NCBI GenBank assembly: GCA_036365455.1
Contig: JAWQUS010000009.1
Coordinates: 4,432,001 to 4,496,000, forward strand
Direction: 5' to 3'
Source: Macrosoma leucophasiata
Lineage: Eukaryota > Arthropoda > Insecta > Lepidoptera > Hedylidae
Length of the DNA: 64,000 nt
Shown: piece after piece, positions 7,858-54,122 of the stretch
Layout of the letters: each line of letters opens with the position of its first letter
Position numbering within the stretch: position 1 is the first letter of the stretch
Program-made: the position numbers and the translations under genes
Notes under the pieces: model-generated
Told to the model about the DNA's origin: nothing
The model's input: the letters and a program-made list of their open reading frames with translations, nothing else
Database searches by the model: none

Positions 7858-8787
7858 GTATGTATGTATGTATCTTCACGCCAGGTCCCTAACGGGGTAG
7901 GCAGAGAGTGTAGAGCGCCAGACATCCCGGTTCTGACAAACCTCTCGTGCCTCGTCTACCTTCATCATTCTCTTCATACATGCACGCCGATTCCTAAGAC
8001 TTTTGACCCCACCATCAGACAGAACTCGACCTATTTGGTCATGGTAGGTCAGCCTTGGTCTTCCTGGGCCTCTGCAACCATCCACATTCGCATTGTATAT
8101 CTGTTTAGTCATTCGCTCATTCGACATTCTTTCTATATGCCCGAACCATCGGAGCATGCCTTTTTTCATTTTTACACCGATACTATCATTCACACAAAGT
8201 CTCTTTCTTACATCTTCATTACGAACGCGATCGGTGAGTGATACACCGCAGATCTTGCGCAAAGATCTCATCTCGACCGCGTTCAACTTACTTTCATGCT
8301 CTTTCCTGCATACCCAGCTCTCGCTTCCATATAAAAGCGTTGGAGTAAGTACAGCATTATGTACGGCTAGTCGAGCCCGCTGGCTGAGATGTTTAGATTC
8401 TAGCAGCTTACCCAACGCTCCATTCACGCAATTCCCAGCAAGCACTCTTCTTTCTATGTCAGTGGTGTACCTACCATCCTTGCTAAAAGCACATCCAAGA
8501 TATACAATTTCATCAACCTGTTCTAACACTGCATCATCTACTACTACCCTTGCATTTGTTCTCTGTTCATCTTTTTCAAATACTAATACTTTAGTTTTAT
8601 CCACATTCAATTGTAAGCCTTTCTCCATACAATCCTCTTTCATGACTGTGACTAGTGCTTGTAGCCCAGATGGTGTAGAGCTAACAATTACCGCATCATC
8701 TGCGTAAAGCAGACAGTTCACCACTAAGTCACCCATACGCACTCCCACATCCATCAACTTCACCCTCTGGAGGCATTTGTACCTACC
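7858..8787 (-). mobile_element. 5'-truncated LINE with 13-bp target duplication
   Basis: The insertion is flanked by an exact 13-bp duplication, TACCTACTAGTAT, at 7845-7857 and 8788-8800. The 3' end (low coordinates) has a (TGTA)n tail next to CTTCACGCCAGGTCCCTAAC. The 5' end stops at about 8780, inside the reverse transcriptase gene. The internal reading frame at 7876-8763 is intact. It is nearly identical to the inverted copy at 24.4-25.4 kb, so both are recent. Confidence 0.85.
7876..8779 (-). pseudogene. LINE ORF2 C-terminal part (reverse transcriptase, truncated)
   Basis: The frame encodes the YADD active-site box (NCLLYADDAVIVSSTPSGLQ) and then the thumb and C-terminal region: LNVDKTKVLVFE, VYLGCAFSKDG, LLYGSESW, LRWFGHIERM and GRPRLTYHD. 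This layout is typical of apurinic-endonuclease LINE ORF2 proteins of the RTE-like type; the clade call is tentative. The endonuclease and the N-terminal palm of the reverse transcriptase are absent because of 5' truncation. There are no stops or frameshifts in 295 codons, which also indicates a young insertion. The opposite-strand frame at 8093-8707 is a shadow. Confidence 0.8.
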
Positions 8788-8800
8788 TACCTACTAGTAT

Positions 8801-23533: not shown

Positions 23534-24400
23534 TATCTGGCTTATGTTATACCAACTCATAATATCAGCCAATACTGCGGGGAACTCGTAGTAACGCATG
23601 ATGAGACAGTCTGGCTAGAAACAGACATATTTGGTGAAGAGGTTGATGACTCTCGTTCCGTGTCGGAAATATCGTCGCTTGCGCACGTAAATAGATTATG
23701 GATGAGTTTCCAAGTTATTACGTGCACCAGTTGTAGGTAGGCGCGACTTCGGCCGCATAGAAAATATTTTCCAGTATTTGCAAATATTTTCTACTCCTAT
23801 AAGCCTGATGATGTAAATGTTTTTAAGAATATGAAGCCTTCCTTGATAAATGGACTATCCAACACAAAAATAACTTTTCAAATCGAATCAGTAGATAGTT
23901 CCTGAGCTTAGCGCGTACAACCAAACACACTATTCAGCTTAAGACTTACTTAAAATTATATTATGTTTAGAGATACTTAGATATGTCTAGGAGATTGTAT
24001 TCATGGAATAATGAAATATTCGCTTGACACGTGACTGTTAAAAATTTGTCCATCGCTTAAGTAGTATGGCAAATACGATTACTTTAACAAATATCACAAA
24101 ACAAAAAAAAACTTTGAAACGAAGGAATAGTTTGGACAGAAATAGGGTACAGAAAAGCCAAGTTCGAAACTGGCGACCAGCCAAGATAAAAGGGCGGATA
24201 CGATGTTGGATTTCAAACGGTTGTCATCTGCCTCGAGCTAGAAAATAGAAAGCCTACAGAGTTAACTTCGGTCTGAATATTTATGCGCATATACACAATC
24301 TGAGTACCTAAATTTTAATGTTTACTCAAGTTTTACTATTTTGTATAATTCGTTCTAGGTTCGATTTATGAATTGCAATAAAATTAATTTCAATTTTATA
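23534..24400. other. No gene recognised
   Basis: Short open frames at 23501-23740 and 24066-24248 have no recognisable domain. The first begins inside the preceding repeat. Confidence 0.45.
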
Positions 24401-24404
24401 AATG

Positions 24405-25422
24405 TGGAAGTTTGGGAGAGTGGATGGATGGATTTTTACCATGCATTCGGTGTCAAACAGGGTTGCGTGCTTTCGTCTAGGCTGTTTATTATATATCTGG
24501 ACAAATGCCTCCAGAGGGTGAAGTTGATGGATGTGGGAGTGCGTATGGGTGACTTAGTGGTGAACTGTCTGCTTTACGCAGATGATGCGGTAATTGTTAG
24601 CTCTACACCATCTGGGCTACAAGCACTAGTCACAGTCATGAAAGAGGATTGTATGGAGAAAGGCTTACAATTGAATGTGGATAAAACTAAAGTATTAGTA
24701 TTTGAAAGAGATGAACAGAGAACAAATGCAAGGGTAGTAGTAGATGATGCAGTGTTAGAACAGGTTGATGAAATTGTATATCTTGGATGTGCTTTTAGCA
24801 AGGATGGTAGGTACACCACTGACATAGAGAGAAGAGTGCTTGCTGGGAATTGCGTGAATGGAGCGTTGGGTAAGCTGCTAGAATCTAAACACCTCAGCCA
24901 GCGGGCTCGACTAGCCGTACATAATGCTGTACTTACTCCAACGCTTTTATATGGAAGCGAGAGCTGGGTATGCAGGAAAGAGCATGAAAGTAAGTTGAAC
25001 GCGGTCGAGATGAGATCTTTGCGCAAGATCTGCGGTGTATCACTCACCGATCGCGTTCGTAATGAAGATGTAAGAAAGAGACTTTGTGTGAATGATAGTA
25101 TCGGTGTAAAAATGAAAAAAGGCATGCTCCGATGGTTCGGGCATATAGAAAGAATGTCGAATGAGCGAATGACTAAACAGATATACAATGCGAATGTGGA
25201 TGGTTGCAGAGGCCCAGGAAGACCAAGGCTGACCTACCATGACCAAATAGGTCGAGTTCTGTCTGATGGTGGGGTCAAAAGTCTTAGGAATCGGCGTGCA
25301 TGTATGAAGAGAATGATGAAGGTAGACGAGGCACGAGAGGTTTGTCAGAACCGGGATGTCTGGCGCTCTACACTCTCTGCCTACCCCGTTAGGGACCTGG
25401 CGTGAAGATACATACATTCATA
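24405..25422 (+). mobile_element. 5'-truncated LINE, second young copy
   Basis: Near-identical, in inverted orientation, to the copy at 7858-8787, but about 100 bp longer at the 5' end. The 3' end reads GGGACCTGGCGTGAAGATAC followed by ATACATTCATAAAAAAA. The 5' junction is near 24405. I did not find a clear target duplication. Confidence 0.8.
24437..25405 (+). pseudogene. LINE ORF2 reverse transcriptase, truncated but open
   Basis: This copy keeps the motif upstream of the catalytic box (FGVKQGCVLSSRLFIIYLDK), then LLYADDAVIVSS, LNVDKTKVLVFE, LLYGSESWVC, LRWFGHIERM and GRPRLTYHDQIG, to a stop at 25405. Compared with the minus-strand copy at 7.9-8.8 kb, the shared 295 residues differ by one conservative change (VFEK versus VFER). 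The frame can be read up to an ATG at 24368, but that start lies in flanking DNA. The endonuclease domain and most of the fingers/palm are missing, so it is a dead-on-arrival insertion. RTE-like affiliation is tentative. Confidence 0.8.
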
Positions 25423-26880: not shown

Positions 26881-27690
26881 TTGTTTATTATATATGTCGG
26901 AGAAAGAACGTTAATCTCGACATCATCATTCGTGGTCATGTGTTTAGTGGGCGTCCTGAGGGTTAAATGCTAGCACAAAACAATAAGTCACTATTATCGG
27001 TCAGATTTAATCACTTTAACAGAATATCACTGCTTAATTTTACACTCGAAACTCTTTGATATAATTACACTTTTAAACTTTGAAGTACAACGAGCAGCGG
27101 GTTCGCGACACCGATCTTACTTCGCCAATCAAATAGTACTCCACTGTCCAGCCAAAGAATGTTCCACCTCGATCAACAACGACACATTTTATAACCTCCG
27201 TTAACGGCGATCTGTCAGATGGCGCCTCGACCCCGCTCGAGGCCTACCCTCAACTCTGTAATGTAATTTTATAATACAATTACTCTTTAAATGAAATAAT
27301 GATTTTAAACGATAACAAAATCTAACAAATCACATTAACTTAAAATAATATTTTTAGCAAGGTATTTCTATAGCCTAGTACTTTACAGAACCAACAATAA
27401 ACTTCTTGCTCCGACACGGCCGTCCTGACGTTTCACACGTCCTCGTGTGATGTTGAAGGACCAGCATCATCATTATCTGTAAGGATAGAAATAACATTTT
27501 GTACGACATAGCTCGGCTACTCCTGACAAAGTAAATTCTCCTCTTACGTTGTTACTTTAAACATGTTTTGTGTAACCCTTTTGTTACATCCTAAGTCAAA
27601 CAGGAAGTACAGTCATTCAACATCATCATCCATAATAATCTTAACTGCCAACTCATATTAACTAGACATCCACCTCACCATCTATCAACC
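26881..27690. other. No gene recognised; possibly LTR-derived
   Basis: GC-richer pieces at 27090-27250 (for example CGTTAACGGCGATCTGTCAG) lie downstream of the gypsy integrase remnants in the element's reading direction and may be a decayed LTR. No LTR pair could be matched by eye. Confidence 0.3.
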
Positions 27691-27711
27691 TATATGAAAC
27701 TTGTCTGAAAG

Positions 27712-28010
27712 GCCAACTCGCCACCAAGCAATCAACATCACCACTGTCTGATTGGCCACCTCGCCATTTAGCAATGCTGTCAGATTGGCCACCTCGCCAT
27801 TTAGTAATGCTGTCACATTGGCCACCTCGCCATTTAGCAATGCTGTCTGATTGGCCACCTCGCCATTTAGCAATGCTGTCAGATTGGCCACCTCGCCATT
27901 TAGCAATGCTGTCACATTGGCCACCTCGCCATTTAGCAATGCTGTCTGATTGGCCACCTCGCCACTTAGTAATGCTGTCCCAGAGGCCAACTCGCCTTTC
28001 AGACCATCTT
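27712..28010 (-). repeat. 33-bp tandem repeat, eight to nine units, open in several frames
   Basis: Units start at 27754, 27787, 27820, 27853, 27886, 27919, 27952 and 27985, with a further diverged unit at 27712. The unit on the plus strand is GGCCACCTCGCCATTTAGCA then ATGCTGTC-AGATT. The last six bases alternate CAGATT/CACATT/CTGATT, giving a 99-bp higher-order period repeated twice. On the minus strand one frame (27685-27990) encodes 11-residue units ALLNGEVANxT with x = L, V or Q, so each full unit holds an N-x-T sequon and a hydrophobic spacing suited to a coiled coil. A second frame gives KWRGGQSDSIA units. Which frame, if any, was translated is unknown. Confidence 0.8.
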
Positions 28011-28189
28011 AAAGCGGACACCTCGCCTTGGATATCTTACACACAATTGTTCTACTCAACAACACAATACGCTAAAGTACCTACAAAATTCGTATATAGC
28101 CACCACGCCAGGACTATTTTGAATGTCTTACCATCATTATCGTCAGATGGACATGGATCCAGCTCAGTACCTAGGTATATTAGACTGAG

Positions 28190-28470
28190 GGAGTGAACAT
28201 CAACCATCGAGTTTAAGATGATAGCTACCTATCTAGCCAATGTTTCAATGACCTCATAAGGACCTTTATACTTAAGTGCCAATTTGGTTTAATTCCGATC
28301 ATGATTTGCTAATAAAAAGAAATCTCCTAAGAGTAAATGAAGTCACCTTAGCCTTGTTTTTCGTTTTCAACATTTACTTCAACTTCGTGATCGTCTACAG
28401 TTAATAAATTTAAATGTCTAGCTACTCTACCTATTAAAAAACTCCATAGGACTCACTTGAAATTTTTAAT
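28190..28470 (-). pseudogene. Ty3/gypsy integrase C-terminal remnant
   Basis: On the minus strand, GDFFLLANHDRN and TKLALKYKGPYEVIETLAR (interrupted by stops) match the C-terminal DNA-binding part of gypsy integrases. Upstream, VARHLNLLTVDDHEVEVNVE can be read in another frame. It continues the integrase core at 28690-28900 across an inserted SINE. It is non-functional because of several stops and frame changes. Confidence 0.55.
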
Positions 28471-47342: not shown

Positions 47343-48621
47343 GGTTGGGGAAAAAGTCTTTTCGCATTATAGTATGTATGAACTTGTAATAAAATCTCTT
47401 TGGCTGTAGTATTTGTACCTGGCTGGTTTTGGTATCATTGAAAGTTAAAATTTTAAAGAACATGCTTCCAAATTCAAATTAGGCAAATGTGTGATTTTCA
47501 TTTGTTTTTCGTACTGTCAAGATGAGTGAATCTAATGAAGAAATTCGATACATTTTAAAATTTTACTACAAAAAAGGTAAAAATACAACGCAAGCCGCGA
47601 AAAAAATTTGCGATGTTAATGGACCTAGTGCAGTGTCTGTGAGAGTAGCACAAATTTGGTTTAAGCGTTTTCAATCCGGAAATTTTGATGTCAAAGATGC
47701 ACCTCGCTCTGGTCGCCCTATTACGGATAAAATGGATGCCATTTTTGAAAAAGTGGAGCAAGATCGACATATCAGTAGTTACGACGTAGCTGAAGAACTG
47801 AGAATTGATCACAAAACAGTTTTGGCGCATTTGAAAAAAGCTGGGTACAAAAAAAAGCTCGATATTTGGGTACCTCACGAGCTCACTGAAAGAAACCTAA
47901 TGAACCGTGTACTCATTTGTGATTCTTTATTACGACGTAATGAAACCGAATCATTTTTGAAGAAGCTGATAACTGGTGATGAAAAGTGGATCACGTACGA
48001 CAAGAACGTGCGAAAAAGGTCGTGGTCAAAGGCCGGTCAGGCTTCACAGACTGTGGCGAAACCCGGGTTAACTCGCAATAAGGTGATGTTGTGTGTGTGG
48101 TGGGATTGGAAGGGCATTATTCATTATGAGCTATTACCACCAGGCAGGACTATCGATTCTGAACTCTACTGCGAACAACTGATGAGATTAAAGCAAGAAG
48201 TTGAGAGAAAGCGGCCGGAATTGATCAACAGAAGGGGTGTGGTGTTTCATCATGATAACGCTAGACCTCACACATCTATAGCCACTCAGCAAAAATTAAG
48301 AGAGTTTGGCTGGGAGGTGTTAATGCATCCGCCGTATAGTCCTGACCTTGCACCTTCAGATTTCCACCTGTTTCGGTCTCTTCAGAATTCTTTATGCAAT
48401 GTTAGGTTAAACATCACGAGAGGACTGCCAAATCCAGTTGTCGCGGTATTTTGACGAGAAGTCCCAAAATTTTTATAGCAATGGGATCATGTCCCTTCCT
48501 ACAGGATGGCAAAAGGTTATCGAACAAAATGGTACATACATACTTTAGTTAAATTTAAATATCTATATTAAAAAATGTTTTGAATTATCTTAAAAAATGC
48601 GAAAAAACTTTTTCTCCAACC
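47343..48621 (+). mobile_element. mariner element (cecropia-like), C-terminal frameshift
   Basis: Terminal repeats GGTTGGGGAAAAAGTCTTTT (47343 on) and, from the right end on the minus strand, GGTTGGAGAAAAAGTTTTTT. TA sits at 47341-47342 and near 48623-48624. It is about 1.28 kb, normal for mariner. It contains one transposase gene with a late frameshift and lies about 500 bp upstream of the arginine kinase leader exon. Confidence 0.88.
47522..48454 (+). CDS. mariner transposase (frameshifted near the C-terminus)
   Basis: This is a cut-and-paste transposase of the Tc1/mariner superfamily that acts at the terminal repeats and joins to TA targets. It has an N-terminal helix-turn-helix DNA-binding region (about residues 5-110, including WFKRFQSGNFDVKDAPRSGR) and the linker WVPHEL (116-121). 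The catalytic triad is Asp153 (ITGDEKW), Asp245 (HHDNARPH) and Asp280 (YSPDLAPSD), a complete DD34D signature. The ATG at 47522 is the natural start. Around 48420 the frame slips: the open frame ends in an aberrant tail at 48454, while the normal C-terminus (SRYFDEKSQNFYSNGIM..., stop near 48549) continues one frame over. The catalytic residues are intact, but a family-typical C-terminal segment is lost, so activity is doubtful. Confidence 0.85.
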   Translation: MSESNEEIRYILKFYYKKGKNTTQAAKKICDVNGPSAVSVRVAQIWFKRFQSGNFDVKDAPRSGRPITDKMDAIFEKVEQDRHISSYDVAEELRIDHKTVLAHLKKAGYKKKLDIWVPHELTERNLMNRVLICDSLLRRNETESFLKKLITGDEKWITYDKNVRKRSWSKAGQASQTVAKPGLTRNKVMLCVWWDWKGIIHYELLPPGRTIDSELYCEQLMRLKQEVERKRPELINRRGVVFHHDNARPHTSIATQQKLREFGWEVLMHPPYSPDLAPSDFHLFRSLQNSLCNVRLNITRGLPNPVVAVF

Positions 48622-48970: not shown

Positions 48971-48989
48971 ATGTATGAAACGAACTGGC

Positions 48990-49159
48990 GAATGGTATGG
49001 CAGCAGCAAGCGGAGAGCATCCCAGCAAGGCCAAGGTTGCCGGTAGGGCTGCGGTGCGGGCGCGGGGCGGCACCGGCTAGCGGCTTAACGTTCCGCGCGC
49101 TGCCGCACCGACCATTCGACACCTCGCAGTCGACTCTGACGGTTGTTCTAGTGCCCAAG
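48990..49159 (+). other. AK: Probable 5' untranslated leader exon of arginine kinase
   Basis: A GC-rich block ends at a consensus donor (CCCAAG/GTAAGC, junction 49159/49160). Spliced to the acceptor at 51675, it would place an in-frame TAG four codons before the joined KAAA-Met, so translation would begin at the ATG at 51688 and give the 355-residue cytosolic enzyme. The exon's 5' end cannot be fixed from sequence; the listed start is approximate. The GC-rich tract around 49010-49110 is a plausible promoter-proximal region. The role is inferred from position, donor strength and phase logic only. Confidence 0.5.
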
Positions 49160-49640: not shown

Positions 49641-49699
49641 ATGGGTGGTTGTGCGACAAAAGAGAACAAGGAACAAAAACCGGCTGACGAGACCGACGG
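49641..49699 (+). CDS. AK: Arginine kinase alternative first exon 1a (acylation-type N-terminus)
   Basis: ATG at 49641 in good insect context (GTGAAAATGG) starts MGGCATKENKEQKPADETD, leaving two bases (GG) before a donor GTGCGT at 49700. The acceptor at 51675 supplies A, making Gly and continuing [11 protein letters not shown] in frame with arginine kinase. Gly2 with Thr6 and Lys7 fits the N-myristoylation consensus, and Cys4 is suited to palmitoylation. Dual acylation of this kind targets flagellar arginine kinases of trypanosomatids to membranes. The resulting enzyme would be 24 residues longer than the cytosolic form. A CpG-rich region (49290-49520) lies upstream and could be a separate promoter. 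The splice is inferred, but phase, donor, start context and motif all agree. Confidence 0.7.
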
Positions 49700-50824
49700 G
49701 TGCGTATACAGCCGGCATTTATCTCGATGCCCGCTGATTCTATCTAACGCTATCATATGATATTGATCGGATTGCTATCAGCAAGTTTTCATTAGAGGAA
49801 TAGAAGTGCATGTTGTTGCATTTTAGGGACCCACTTCTTTAATCCAGCTCTTGTGATAATATGTTAAAACATATTTTGTGTTTGAAGTGTAGGCATTGAG
49901 TAGTCGACATATCGTCGAAATAAAGTAAAATAAATGTAAAAAATATCATCACACCTGTCAAGTATAAGAGACTTGTCTTAAGTTTTGGATTCTATGTGAT
50001 CAATATGAAAATTTCCATTGTTATTTAACTGTGTCCTTTCAAGAATAATAGGACTACCGTTTTGTTAATTACATTAAATACTTGTTTGTGTTTAAGTACA
50101 TTTTCTTAAAATTTATGTTTTAGAATTAGGTACATAGATACTAATAATTTAATTAATACATTCAGAACACTAGTAAATAACATATGTAGCACTCTAATAA
50201 TGATTTTAAGTGTGGGTGTCAAATTAATGTATATACCTACAACTATGTAGTTTTAACACTTCCATAAATCGAAAGAAAATTAAATTAACAGTAAACAAAA
50301 TAAACTTCAATGTTACCTAATCATTATGAAGAATAAACCAGTAATATGGGTTTTCGTTTGTGTGAAATTCGGGGTGAATTTTATTCCTGCATTTCTATTA
50401 GAGCGCTTTTTAAAATTCATACCTTTAGGTAACATTACCTCATATCAATGCTTAATGACATATGCGTGTTATCGTAATCGTTATAATTCTGAGAACGATA
50501 AGTCGAGTAGTGTAATCCGACAACGCATTGTTGAGCTACCTTCTCGAATGGAAAATGTATGCAATTAGGTAACAAGAAACGCGATAACACGTTCATGTGC
50601 TGGACTTGAGTGGGAGGTACCGGCTGCGCGGCGCGGTACAGCACTGGTGCGCAGTGAGGTGACACATCCGCCCGACTTGCGCGCGGCCAAGGCGACCTCT
50701 ACCTAAATTACGTAATTCCAAATTCAAGTGAACTCCAGGGTGTGTTCAAAACCTATCCCGACGTTTCCCGTGACATTTCGCTCCCTAGTTGCTAGATCCT
50801 CTAAAATAGTGGCTTAGTATAACC

Positions 50825-50901
50825 ATGAATTACAAACTAAAAGTCACGATTCCAGTTGTGGTTTGCGGCGGTGCTGTTCTTGCGTATTACCTCATCAGGC
50901 G
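50825..50901 (+). CDS. AK: Arginine kinase alternative first exon 1b (membrane signal anchor)
   Basis: ATG at 50825 (context ATAACCATGA) starts MNYKLK, then an 18-residue hydrophobic run VTIPVVVCGGAVLAYYLI, then Arg, leaving CG before the donor GTTCGT at 50902. Joined to the acceptor at 51675 (A) it makes Arg and then [11 protein letters not shown] in frame. Joined to the microexon at 51086 (G) it also makes Arg. A moderately hydrophobic segment with basic residues on both sides resembles N-terminal signal anchors of mitochondrial outer-membrane proteins, though ER or plasma-membrane insertion is possible. The donor is weaker than consensus. A GC-rich patch at 50610-50700 may be its promoter region. 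Confidence 0.65.
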
Positions 50902-51085
50902 GTTCGTAGAATTTTTATAAATAACTGTATAACTTTAGTTTATTCATGACGGTTAATACATTAAGCGTAAATACATACAAAACTTAAGTGTTAGTTATTA
51001 AATTCAAATTACAAAATAACTTTTTTTACCGGTTTTGTATTATTATATATTAGATTTTTTAAAATATTGATTTATTTCGCATCAG

Positions 51086-51121
51086 GTTTTCTCTTCCACA
51101 ACCACCCGAAACCGGAAGCGG
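51086..51121 (+). CDS. AK: Arginine kinase 36-nt in-phase microexon
   Basis: Acceptor TTTATTTCGCATCAG (AG at 51084-51085) and near-perfect donor GTACGT at 51122 bound exactly 36 nt. Entered from exon 1b it completes Arg and encodes FSLPQPPETGS with GG left for the next exon's A. It thus inserts 12 residues (FSLPQPPETGSG) between the membrane anchor and the kinase without changing phase. The Pro/Gly-rich composition suits a flexible linker. It could be constitutive or optional in the anchored isoform. It is inferred purely from splice sites and phase. Confidence 0.6.
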
Positions 51122-51674
51122 GTACGTTCCTATTTTAAGTTCTTTCAATTCAATGTCAAATTGACAATTCAACAGCGTTGCCAGAAAGTAACTTTTGTAA
51201 CATTTTGCGTTACTTTTCACTCTCTCATTTTTTTTTTTTTACTTAATTATTCCAATATTTTCCAACAGAAAATCAGAACGCATACGAAAAAGTTTTCATT
51301 CGTAGTCTAATAAATTCACCAGATATAAAGTGATAATAGATTACTATCGATAAACATTTTTGGGGTGCCAAATGTTCACGGCATGACATGACAGGATATT
51401 GCGAAAAAATCTGACATCTGACACTGGCAACACTGCAATTCGACCTGCTTGAATGCATTTCCGCTTTCCAGTTTCCCCGACATTTAAATTTTGAATTGAC
51501 GGATACTTTAAAATTGAGTAAAGAAATATCTAAATAAAATAATTTATAATGTGTACGAGAGCTACTTGTGCGGCGTTGAAGGCGTTAGAAAGTGTTTTCA
51601 TTCAATTATAATTAATTAATGTACCGAAAATCATGTTACTTACGTGTGATTAAATGGTTGCCGTTTTTGTGCAG

Positions 51675-51853
51675 AAAAGCCGCAGCTATGGTGGACGCCG
51701 CAACCCTCGAGAAGTTGGAGGCTGGTTTCAGCAAGCTCTCGGGCTCCGACTCCAAGTCGCTGCTGAAGAAGTACCTCACAAGGGAGGTGTTCGACGCCCT
51801 TAAGAACAAGAAGACCTCCTTCGGCTCCACCCTCTTGGATTGCATCCAGTCTG
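51675..51853 (+). CDS. AK: Arginine kinase common exon 2
   Basis: Acceptor GTTGCCGTTTTTGTGCAG, AG at 51673-51674. The exon reads A|AAA GCC GCA GCT ATG, so it accepts two bases from any upstream exon. It carries the cytosolic start ATG (51688, context CGCAGCTATGG) and residues 1-55, ending at a strong donor GTAAGT. Without splicing at this acceptor, the reading frame stays open upstream to an ATG at 51619 (see findings). Confidence 0.9.
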
Positions 51854-54122
51854 GTAAGTTTCGCCTTATTTTCTAATTAGATTTTCCTACACTACCTATA
51901 CTACCCTACCACTATTAATAGAATAAAAATAAACTTGTGAAACTTTATGAAAAACAAAAATCTTTTCATGTTATGTATATAAACTAGAAGAGCTAGTATT
52001 TTTCTATAAGTATCATGAAGAGAATGTCAAATATATACTATACAATCTTCTTTACATACAGATGGTAAATGAATAGATAAGTACTGCAATCTATAGACAT
52101 TCATAGAAAATTCGAGATAGGTAAGTCCCAGTGTTGCTGTTACTTATATTTTACCTCTGTGCAAGAAATTGCAAGCCCAGTTACTGGAAAGCTTTTAATG
52201 GAGATTAGATAGTGATTTATAAGGGTGACTCTTCAGTGTATTTACTTGGAATACACAATGCAGTGGTAGCCATTAAAGCTGATTAAAGCTGGCACTTGAG
52301 CTCAACCATCAGTATATAGCTGGAAAAAACTTTAATAATAGGTATTTATATAAATATACATAAAAAAATATATATTATCATTATTCTTCTATTCCATTTG
52401 TTAGTTTTAATTTGAACTGTATGGACATTATTCACAAATGTGATATCTGGCACAATATACTACCAAGATAATATTTATCTGATTGGAAATAATTGATAAC
52501 ATTGTGATACATCTAGATCATATCAATATTTGCTGAAAATTAAAATAAATATGTATGTACTAGTAGTCATTGATAACTAAATACCTACTAGTTTATGGAA
52601 ATTGCATAAACTAGTAGGTATGTTGTGTTTTGTTTTAAATGAATAGTGGCAATATGATGTTAGTTTTACATGTAGTTCAAAAATACTATTGTTTTTAACG
52701 AGAGCTAAGAGAAAATTTCTCTAAACAAAGATATTCATACCACATATTCTAAATACCTACTTTCCAGCAGAAGGTACCCATATCCTAAGTTATTTTTTTC
52801 TATTAAAGCTATGGTTTATAATATTAAAATCGTTTTTAAATATTGTGTTCAATTTTCCTTCTTTAGCTGCCTGAAGCTCAATAGGTGGAGCTTCAGCAAC
52901 AAAGCTTGATGACATAACTACCTACAACATTATCTAATGTGACTGAAGGACTACATGTAGTAATGTATATTATAAAATACTTATGGGATTTCACTTTTTT
53001 ACACTACTGCATGTCATGATGATATACAGTTCTATAATATAAAGACATTATAGTTAAAAGGCCAAGAAAAATAAACACTGGGCAGATCATTCTAAGGGGC
53101 CTTTGAACCTGCCCTTCTGAACATATATTTTTTATTTTAGAGCCCTAGAGACGTTTAAATAACCACCTCTGTAGAAAGTAACATATGATAAAAAACTTAT
53201 CATATTTTTATTTATTCCAGGTATTGAGAACTTGGATTCTGGTGTTGGTATCTATGCTCCCGATGCTGAGTCATACACAGTGTTTGCTGACCTGTTCGAC
53301 CCCATCATCGAGGACTACCACAACGGCTTCAAGAAGACTGACAAGCACCCCGCCAAGAACTGGGGTGATGTTGAGACCCTCGGAAACCTGGACCCCAACA
53401 ATGAGTTCATTGTTTCCACCCGCGTCCGCTGCGGTCGCTCCATGGAGGGCTACCCCTTCAACCCCTGCCTAACTGAGGCCCAGTACAAAGAGATGGAAGA
53501 AAAAGTTTCGACCACCCTTTCCGGCCTGGAAGGCGAACTCAAGGGCACATTCTACCCTCTCACCGGCATGTCCAAGGAGACCCAGCAGCAGCTGATCGAC
53601 GACCACTTCCTGTTCAAAGAGGGCGACCGCTTCTTGCAGGCCGCCAACGCGTGCCGCTTCTGGCCCAGCGGCCGCGGTATCTACCACAACTCGAACAAAA
53701 CCTTCCTGGTGTGGTGCAACGAGGAGGACCACCTCCGCCTTATCTCCATGCAGATGGGTGGTGACCTGAAGCAGGTGTACAAGAGGCTGGTGACGGCCGT
53801 CAACGACATCGAGAAGAGGATCCCGTTCTCGCACAACGACCGCCTCGGCTTCCTCACCTTTTGCCCCACCAACCTGGGCACCACGGTGCGCGCGTCCGTG
53901 CACATCAAGGTGCCCAAGCTGGCCGCGGACAAGGCCAAGCTGGAGGAGGTGGCCGGCAAGTACCACCTGCAGGTGCGCGGCACCCGCGGCGAGCACACCG
54001 AGGCCGAGGGCGGCGTCTACGACATCTCCAACAAGAGGCGCATGGGCCTCACCGAGTACGACGCCGTCAAGGAGATGTACGATGGCATCGCTGAACTGAT
54101 CAAAATCGAGAAATCCCTGTAA
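51688..54122 (+). CDS. AK: Arginine kinase (two coding exons, 355 residues)
   Basis: Joined exons 51688-51853 and 53221-54122 encode a full-length arginine kinase (ATP:L-arginine phosphotransferase), which reversibly makes phosphoarginine as an energy buffer in muscle, nerve and sperm. The N-terminal helical domain spans about residues 1-95, including the guanidino-specificity loop [13 protein letters not shown] (62-74). The catalytic domain follows with the nucleotide-binding [17 protein letters not shown] (Arg123, Arg125), [16 protein letters not shown] (catalytic Glu near 224), [14 protein letters not shown] (reactive Cys270, Arg279) and [11 protein letters not shown] (Arg308, Glu313). Length equals the usual insect enzyme (355), and all key residues are present. 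Splice junctions are TCTG/GTAAGT (51853) and TTTATTCCAG/GTATTGAG (53221), phase 1. The second exon is GC-rich with strong codon bias, as expected for an abundant muscle protein. Confidence 0.97.
52581..52621. repeat. Perfect 17-bp hairpin in the arginine kinase intron
   Basis: ATACCTACTAGTTTATG (52581-52597) and its exact inverse (52605-52621), 7-nt loop. Confidence 0.9.
52884..52945 (+). repeat. Family A head, diverged
   Basis: GGTGGAGCTTCAGCAACAAA, GCTTG and CATTATCTAATGT follow the order of the family A 5' end. Confidence 0.4.
53221..54122 (+). CDS. AK: Arginine kinase exon 3 (catalytic domain)
   Basis: 902 coding nt finishing residues 56-355 and the TAA stop (54120-54122). It is markedly GC-rich at third positions. 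Opposite-strand and other-frame open readings (for example minus 53469-53996) are shadows of this bias. Confidence 0.95.

Follow-up and report, generated by a model that had tools for sequence, protein, structure and literature searches.

Alternative first exons of an arginine kinase gene in the hedylid moth Macrosoma leucophasiata and their possible role in addressing one enzyme within the cell

An arginine kinase gene preceded by several short coding exons raises the question whether one gene can address one enzyme to several places in the cell. Such a locus was analysed in a 64-kb stretch of the Macrosoma leucophasiata genome (64,000 nucleotides; contig JAWQUS010000009.1, positions 4,432,001 to 4,496,000 of the forward strand), hereafter the window; positions are counted from its first letter. 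A reading made earlier from the letters only (the sequence-only reading) had proposed that three alternative N-termini, cytosolic, acylated and membrane-anchored, arise here. The explanation favoured below, which we hold to be probable as a whole, is that the moth has one canonical arginine kinase gene (ArgK1), contained in the window, in which no fewer than four alternative first exons are spliced to a shared acceptor at 51675 and address one enzyme to several places in the cell. The features concerned are listed in Table 1.

Table 1. Exons of the arginine kinase locus, in window coordinates.
Feature	Position	Strand	Description
Leader exon, non-coding for the kinase	48985-49159 (5′ end approximate)	+	Donor AAG/GTAAGC, strong
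First exon A, coding part (59 nt)	49641-49699	+	MGGCATKENKEQKPADETD plus two bases GG; myristoylation/palmitoylation-type
First exon B, coding part (77 nt)	50825-50901	+	MNYKLK, 18 hydrophobic residues, R plus two bases CG; signal-anchor type
Possible optional 36-nt exon (sequence-only reading)	51086-51121	+	Phase fits; unsupported
First exon C, coding part	51549-51583	+	MCTRATCAALK plus two bases GC; 12/12 against Bombyx P0006
Common exon	51675-51853	+	KAAA plus start of the 355-residue kinase, ATG at 51688
Last coding exon, catalytic part, stop included	53221-54122	+	PF00217 match C9:4485490-4486116

Gene structure and copy number

The arginine kinase gene was complete in the window, its 355-residue coding sequence running from the ATG at 51688 through the common and last coding exons. 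Compared with the retrieved kinases, this core was 93.8% identical to that of Pieris rapae (P0001) and 92.7% identical to that of Bombyx mori (P0002). In a profile search of the moth's own genome (616 Mb, 61 contigs), PF00217 was over its cut-off at the window gene (E 2.1e-77), and in the relatives P0001 and P0002 both PF02807 and PF00217 were over cut-off. The window translation contained CPTNLGTT, with the reactive cysteine, as well as NEEDH; the CPTN cysteine and the NEEDH residues are presumably catalytic.

The same search returned a single further PF00217 match, located on contig 17 (E 9.5e-32). Its alignment with the Bombyx kinase spanned 390 columns at 27% identity, and the protein carried SSRPT in place of FCPTN and NIHDH in place of NEEDH. 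Judged from its sequence, this divergent paralogue is likely a pseudo-enzyme. It was seen as an uninterrupted 466-codon frame (L002, 835-2235) without the CPTN cysteine or the NEEDH glutamates. By the PF00217 search, the window gene was the only intact arginine kinase gene in the genome. Because the sole other phosphagen-kinase match was divergent and lacked the CPTN cysteine, the window locus probably has to serve all compartments.

Elsewhere in the window, a long open frame (47495-48454), which precedes the kinase leader by about 0.5 kb, was noted by eye, and we take it to resemble a mariner transposase. Two nearly identical open frames in opposite orientation, 7876-8790 on the minus strand and 24359-25405 on the plus strand, were likewise found by eye and presumably represent the end of a reverse transcriptase. 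At 27662-28196, inspection by eye showed a short tandem repeat, with SDWPPRHLAML and SIAKWRGGQ units, that is covered by open frames on both strands.

First exons and their counterparts in other insects

The acceptor at 51675 reads A-AAA-GCC-GCA-GCT-ATG, so that an upstream exon ending with two spare bases is read through as KAAAM. Exons A, B and C all had this phase, each with in-frame stops 5′ of its own ATG. For exons A and B, the position, phase, translation and fit to the acceptor were as the sequence-only reading had claimed, while its count of three N-termini had to be raised to at least four by the addition of exon C.

Conservation was judged from 123 retrieved proteins, ranked by likeness to the forms of the window gene and taken from a database clustered at 90%. 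These were largely computed gene models, and some relatives were known solely from a source labelled lgn, taken to consist of assembled read contigs. By class, the set comprised 25 proteins with the MG pattern (the partial P0018 included), 38 with an MFxLWY start, 28 with other extensions, 30 plain forms and two with an internal MGGC, counts that are not to be equated with natural frequencies.

Joined to the common and last coding exons, exon A encoded 379 residues starting with MGGCATKENKEQKPADETDG-KAAAM. Its donor scored 5.1, a value reached by 0.6% of the GT sites in the window. The frame was conserved in Bombyx isoform X4 (15/20 residues of the exon peptide identical) and in Maniola isoform X2 (16/20). 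When the exon A form was used as a protein query, 175 matches were obtained, and among the best 120 of these, MG[GV]C starts were found in Tribolium, Ceutorhynchus, Anopheles, Ochlerotatus, Bactrocera, Haematobia, Sitodiplosis, Trichogramma, Xylocopa, Tetragonisca, Vespula, Bacillus and Anabrus; the groups with such starts among the matches listed were beetles, flies, bees and wasps, a stick insect and a katydid.

An SH4-type motif consists of a Met-Gly start, a small or polar residue at position 6, Lys7 and a Cys near the start. The exon A start, MGGCATK, agrees with it in Gly2, Cys4, Thr6 and Lys7. An MG set was formed from the 24 of the 123 retrieved proteins that had an MG start and more than 356 residues, the partial P0018 being left out. 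Cys4 was present in 21/24, Ser or Thr at position 6 in 21/24 and Lys7 in 22/24, and the residues beyond the acylation positions drifted. Two barnacle proteins (P0094 and P0109) had the MG start without Cys4, and one member of the set, P0119 (MGVLVNSH), looks spurious. Exon A encodes a putative acyl-type N-terminus, a candidate for myristate at Gly2 and palmitate at Cys4.

Exon B was laid out as MNYKLK, then VTIPVVVCGGAVLAYYLI, then RRK. With the common exons it encoded 385 residues starting with MNYKLKVTIPVVVCGGAVLAYYLIRR-KAAAM, or 397 when 51086-51121 was inserted; its donor, gttcgt, was weak, 11% of the window GT sites scoring as well. The exon B form, used as a protein query with the 36-nt exon included, retrieved a single protein, Pieris rapae isoform X2, whose opening residues are MNYKIKVTIPIVVCGGAVLAYYLIRRKAAAM. 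The frame of exon B was conserved in this isoform, with 24/26 residues identical and two conservative changes (L to I and V to I). The Pieris anchor peptide, searched against the 616-Mb moth genome, gave one match at E ≤ 10, namely exon B (E 4.6e-10).

In Pieris rapae X2 the anchor was joined directly to the common exon (KAAAM). The 36-nt exon that had been placed between 50901 and 51675 was thus unsupported: the search including it returned only this Pieris form, which lacks it, from a database whose 90% clustering may hide members carrying the exon.

Exon C encoded MCTRATCAALKA, a fourth N-terminus that was absent from the sequence-only reading. It was identical, at 12/12 residues and with the same junction, to the Bombyx arginine kinase record P0006 (UniRef A0A8R2HPS2_BOMMO). 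The donor, gttaga, was weak, 40% of the window GT sites scoring as well. No recognisable targeting signal was found in exon C, and its hydrophobic moment was no better than that of shuffles. A mitochondrial presequence was rejected for this exon, 59% of 1000 shuffles reaching its moment (10 peptides, uncorrected).

Other positively charged N-terminal extensions were seen in sand fly, midge, stingless bee and wasp kinases (P0058, P0069, P0103, P0106 and P0118). For the sand fly P0058 and the stingless bee P0103, hydrophobic moments of 0.62 and 0.63 were obtained, which about 5% of shuffles reach, uncorrected for the 10 peptides; the midge and wasp extensions were no better than shuffles.

The leader donor scored 7.1, matched by 0.11% of the window GT sites. 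An in-frame TAG lay at 49149-49151, so that from the leader only the ATG at 51688 is open and the 355-residue form results, which bears out the earlier claim that a leader ending at 49159 yields only the standard enzyme. Across 63 columns, the translation of 48985-49158 was 57% identical to the upstream, N-terminal portion of a gene prediction from Tuta absoluta (P0010). P0010 runs on into KAAAM, whereas its window counterpart has a stop; in the Tuta and Parnassius predictions the reading frame continues from the leader into the kinase, which it does not do here. The stretch is either a conserved leader or, in other moths, a fifth N-terminus. A 27-codon upstream ORF was also observed within the leader (48997-49080, MAAASGEHPSKAKVAGRAAVRARGGTG).

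Predicted destinations and competing readings

In the proposed mechanism, at least four first exons would join the acceptor at 51675, probably from separate start sites with promoters of their own. From the leader, the plain 355-residue cytosolic enzyme would be made. The SH4-type N-terminus of exon A would attach the kinase to the plasma membrane, or to related membranes, from the cytosolic side, and exon C would supply a short N-terminus with no assigned purpose.

The destination of exon B was assessed by hydrophobicity. Over its 18-residue segment the mean Wimley-White octanol value was approximately 0.27, against 0.30 in Pieris (octanol scale assumed), and in both proteins RRK followed directly. 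According to PMC4010795, mitochondrial and chloroplast signal anchors combine a Wimley-White value below 0.4 with at least three basic residues C-terminal of the segment, ER signal anchors being mostly above 0.4; the rule was derived from Arabidopsis proteins and, according to the same source, also applies to most of those in mammals and yeast. Exon B has both sequence features of mitochondrial outer-membrane signal anchors, a value of 0.27 (below 0.4) and RRK, and by this rule it is therefore a predicted mitochondrial outer-membrane anchor. This moderately hydrophobic segment with its RRK would most likely hold the kinase at the mitochondrial outer membrane, facing the cytosol. The anchor type proposed before was retained, its destination being narrowed by the rule from a membrane in general to this one. 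With the 36-nt exon included, only RR would lie close to the segment. In an AlphaFold model of the Pieris protein, predicted from an alignment of 28/123 retrieved proteins, pLDDT was below 50 for residues 1-29, and the model thus says nothing about the anchor.

Exon B might instead be a real anchor directed to the ER or the plasma membrane, so that one kind of membrane would be supplied by the acyl form in some tissues and by the anchor form in others. An 18-residue hydrophobic core flanked by basic residues is compatible with any short signal anchor, and in the relative P0019, which has a fly-like core, the N-terminal segment is more hydrophobic, with a value of 0.61 on the same scale, and would be assigned to the ER by the rule. 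Against this stand the value of exon B itself together with its RRK, which follow the mitochondrial pattern, and the occurrence of mitochondrial ArgK1 isoforms in Drosophila (PMC13215054); we consider the ER or plasma membrane an unlikely destination, though one with some weight.

It was also considered that the first exons are alternative promoters or UTRs for tissue control, the N-terminal additions being tolerated and without targeting function. This would suit exon C, which is conserved at 12/12 residues yet has no recognisable signal, and the internal ATG at 51688, which is contained in all forms. It would leave unexplained that the acylation residues were kept across insect orders in 21/24 MG forms while the rest drifted, and that the hydrophobic and basic pattern of exon B was kept relative to Pieris with only the two changes given above. 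Control by promoters or UTRs alone is accordingly judged improbable.

The exon anatomy alone is suggestive only. Between 49000 and 51674, five ATG-to-donor candidates of 11 to 46 codons had the right phase and a donor at least as good as the weaker of the A and B donors, a threshold below which exon C falls. In 200 first-order shuffles of the same region, the mean number of such candidates was 2.05; of these shuffles, 5% contained a candidate with the myristoyl pattern, 1% a hydrophobic one and 0/200 both together. It is the residue-level identity to annotated isoforms at exact junctions that makes exons A, B and C more than chance frames. Frames of this sort are common (five reach the donor threshold), and the donors of B and C are weak. 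Even so, functionless chance runs from an ATG to a GT are hardly credible and were rejected for exons A, B and C on the strength of that identity and of the single genome-wide match reported for the anchor peptide.

Under the favoured explanation of alternative first exons with different addresses, the physiological role of the arrangement would be that one gene sends one enzyme both to ATP sources and to ATP consumers. The idea that one gene serves several compartments was thus kept as regards conserved alternative acyl and anchor exons, and revised in the number of N-termini and in the target of the anchor.

Known systems and the origin of the address exons

One gene with several addresses is a principle partly known from Drosophila ArgK1, which is alternatively spliced, has seven annotated transcripts and contains a first exon, MFALWYLTFAVDEIRK, reported to be sufficient to bring a reporter to mitochondria (PMC13215054). 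As in the moth, the Drosophila RA/RE forms place alternative N-terminal exons on one common catalytic exon (PMC13215054). In its sequence and in the arrangement of its charges, the Drosophila mitochondrial exon looks different from exon B of the moth. In the main text of PMC13215054, "myristoyl" occurs for a reporter only, and "palmitoyl" and "acylat" are absent. Searches of open-licence literature gave no description of an acylated insect arginine kinase or of a moth-type anchor. The new parts would be the acyl form and the moth-type anchor, the latter predicting an outer-membrane mitochondrial placement.

Sea urchin flagellar creatine kinase and the myristoylated arginine kinase of Tetrahymena are attached by N-myristate; these are products of dedicated genes for cilia or flagella, in contrast to the one gene of the moth. 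Vertebrate mitochondrial creatine kinases carry cleaved presequences and lie in the intermembrane space, coupled to ATP export. The moth exon B form would resemble them in bringing a phosphagen kinase to mitochondria and differ from them in that its anchor is predicted to stay uncleaved and to leave the kinase in the cytosol. The vertebrate enzymes are encoded by separate genes (PMC7603314). In Trypanosoma brucei, the flagellar arginine kinase AK3 has an N-terminal piece likened to the myristoylated and palmitoylated calflagins (PMC4517888). AK3 is like the predicted exon A form in that an N-terminal piece relocates an arginine kinase, but it is a separate, duplicated gene with a flagellar product and not an alternative first exon (PMC4517888).

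The MFxLWY start was present in 38/123 retrieved proteins, and those named by source among the matches listed came from flies, beetles and one leafhopper. The motif MF.LW[YF] was found in none of the six frames of the 64-kb window. A mosquito-type MFxLWY peptide had no match in the moth genome, a search that had no control of its own and that a short divergent exon could escape; a like search did recover the much closer Pieris anchor peptide. On these two negative results, and with the same reservation about a short divergent exon, the presence of a Drosophila-type exon in the moth was rejected. The moth anchor may stand in for the fly mitochondrial exon.

For Tribolium, TcAK1 was found in the cytoplasm including mitochondria (PMC7603314). 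The same paper, of 2020, calls true mitochondrial arginine kinases in arthropods controversial, citing activity associated with midgut mitochondria in another moth, Manduca, as well as a report of Drosophila arginine kinases in the cytoplasm only (PMC7603314).

Tentatively, and as a possibility to which we give less than even weight, the address exons of an ancestral insect ArgK1 may have been plain, acyl (MG[GV]C) and mitochondrial (MFxLWY), the MFxLWY exon having been lost in moths and butterflies and replaced by an unrelated, uncleaved outer-membrane anchor that holds the kinase on the cytosolic face of mitochondria. If so, the topology would differ from that of vertebrate mitochondrial creatine kinase, and the replacement would account for the mitochondria-associated arginine kinase activity reported for Manduca midgut. 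Each candidate address is encoded by one short exon of the same gene and can thus be removed singly or attached to a reporter. If the acyl form proves true, being common to several insect orders, it would mean phosphagen buffering at membranes in many insects.
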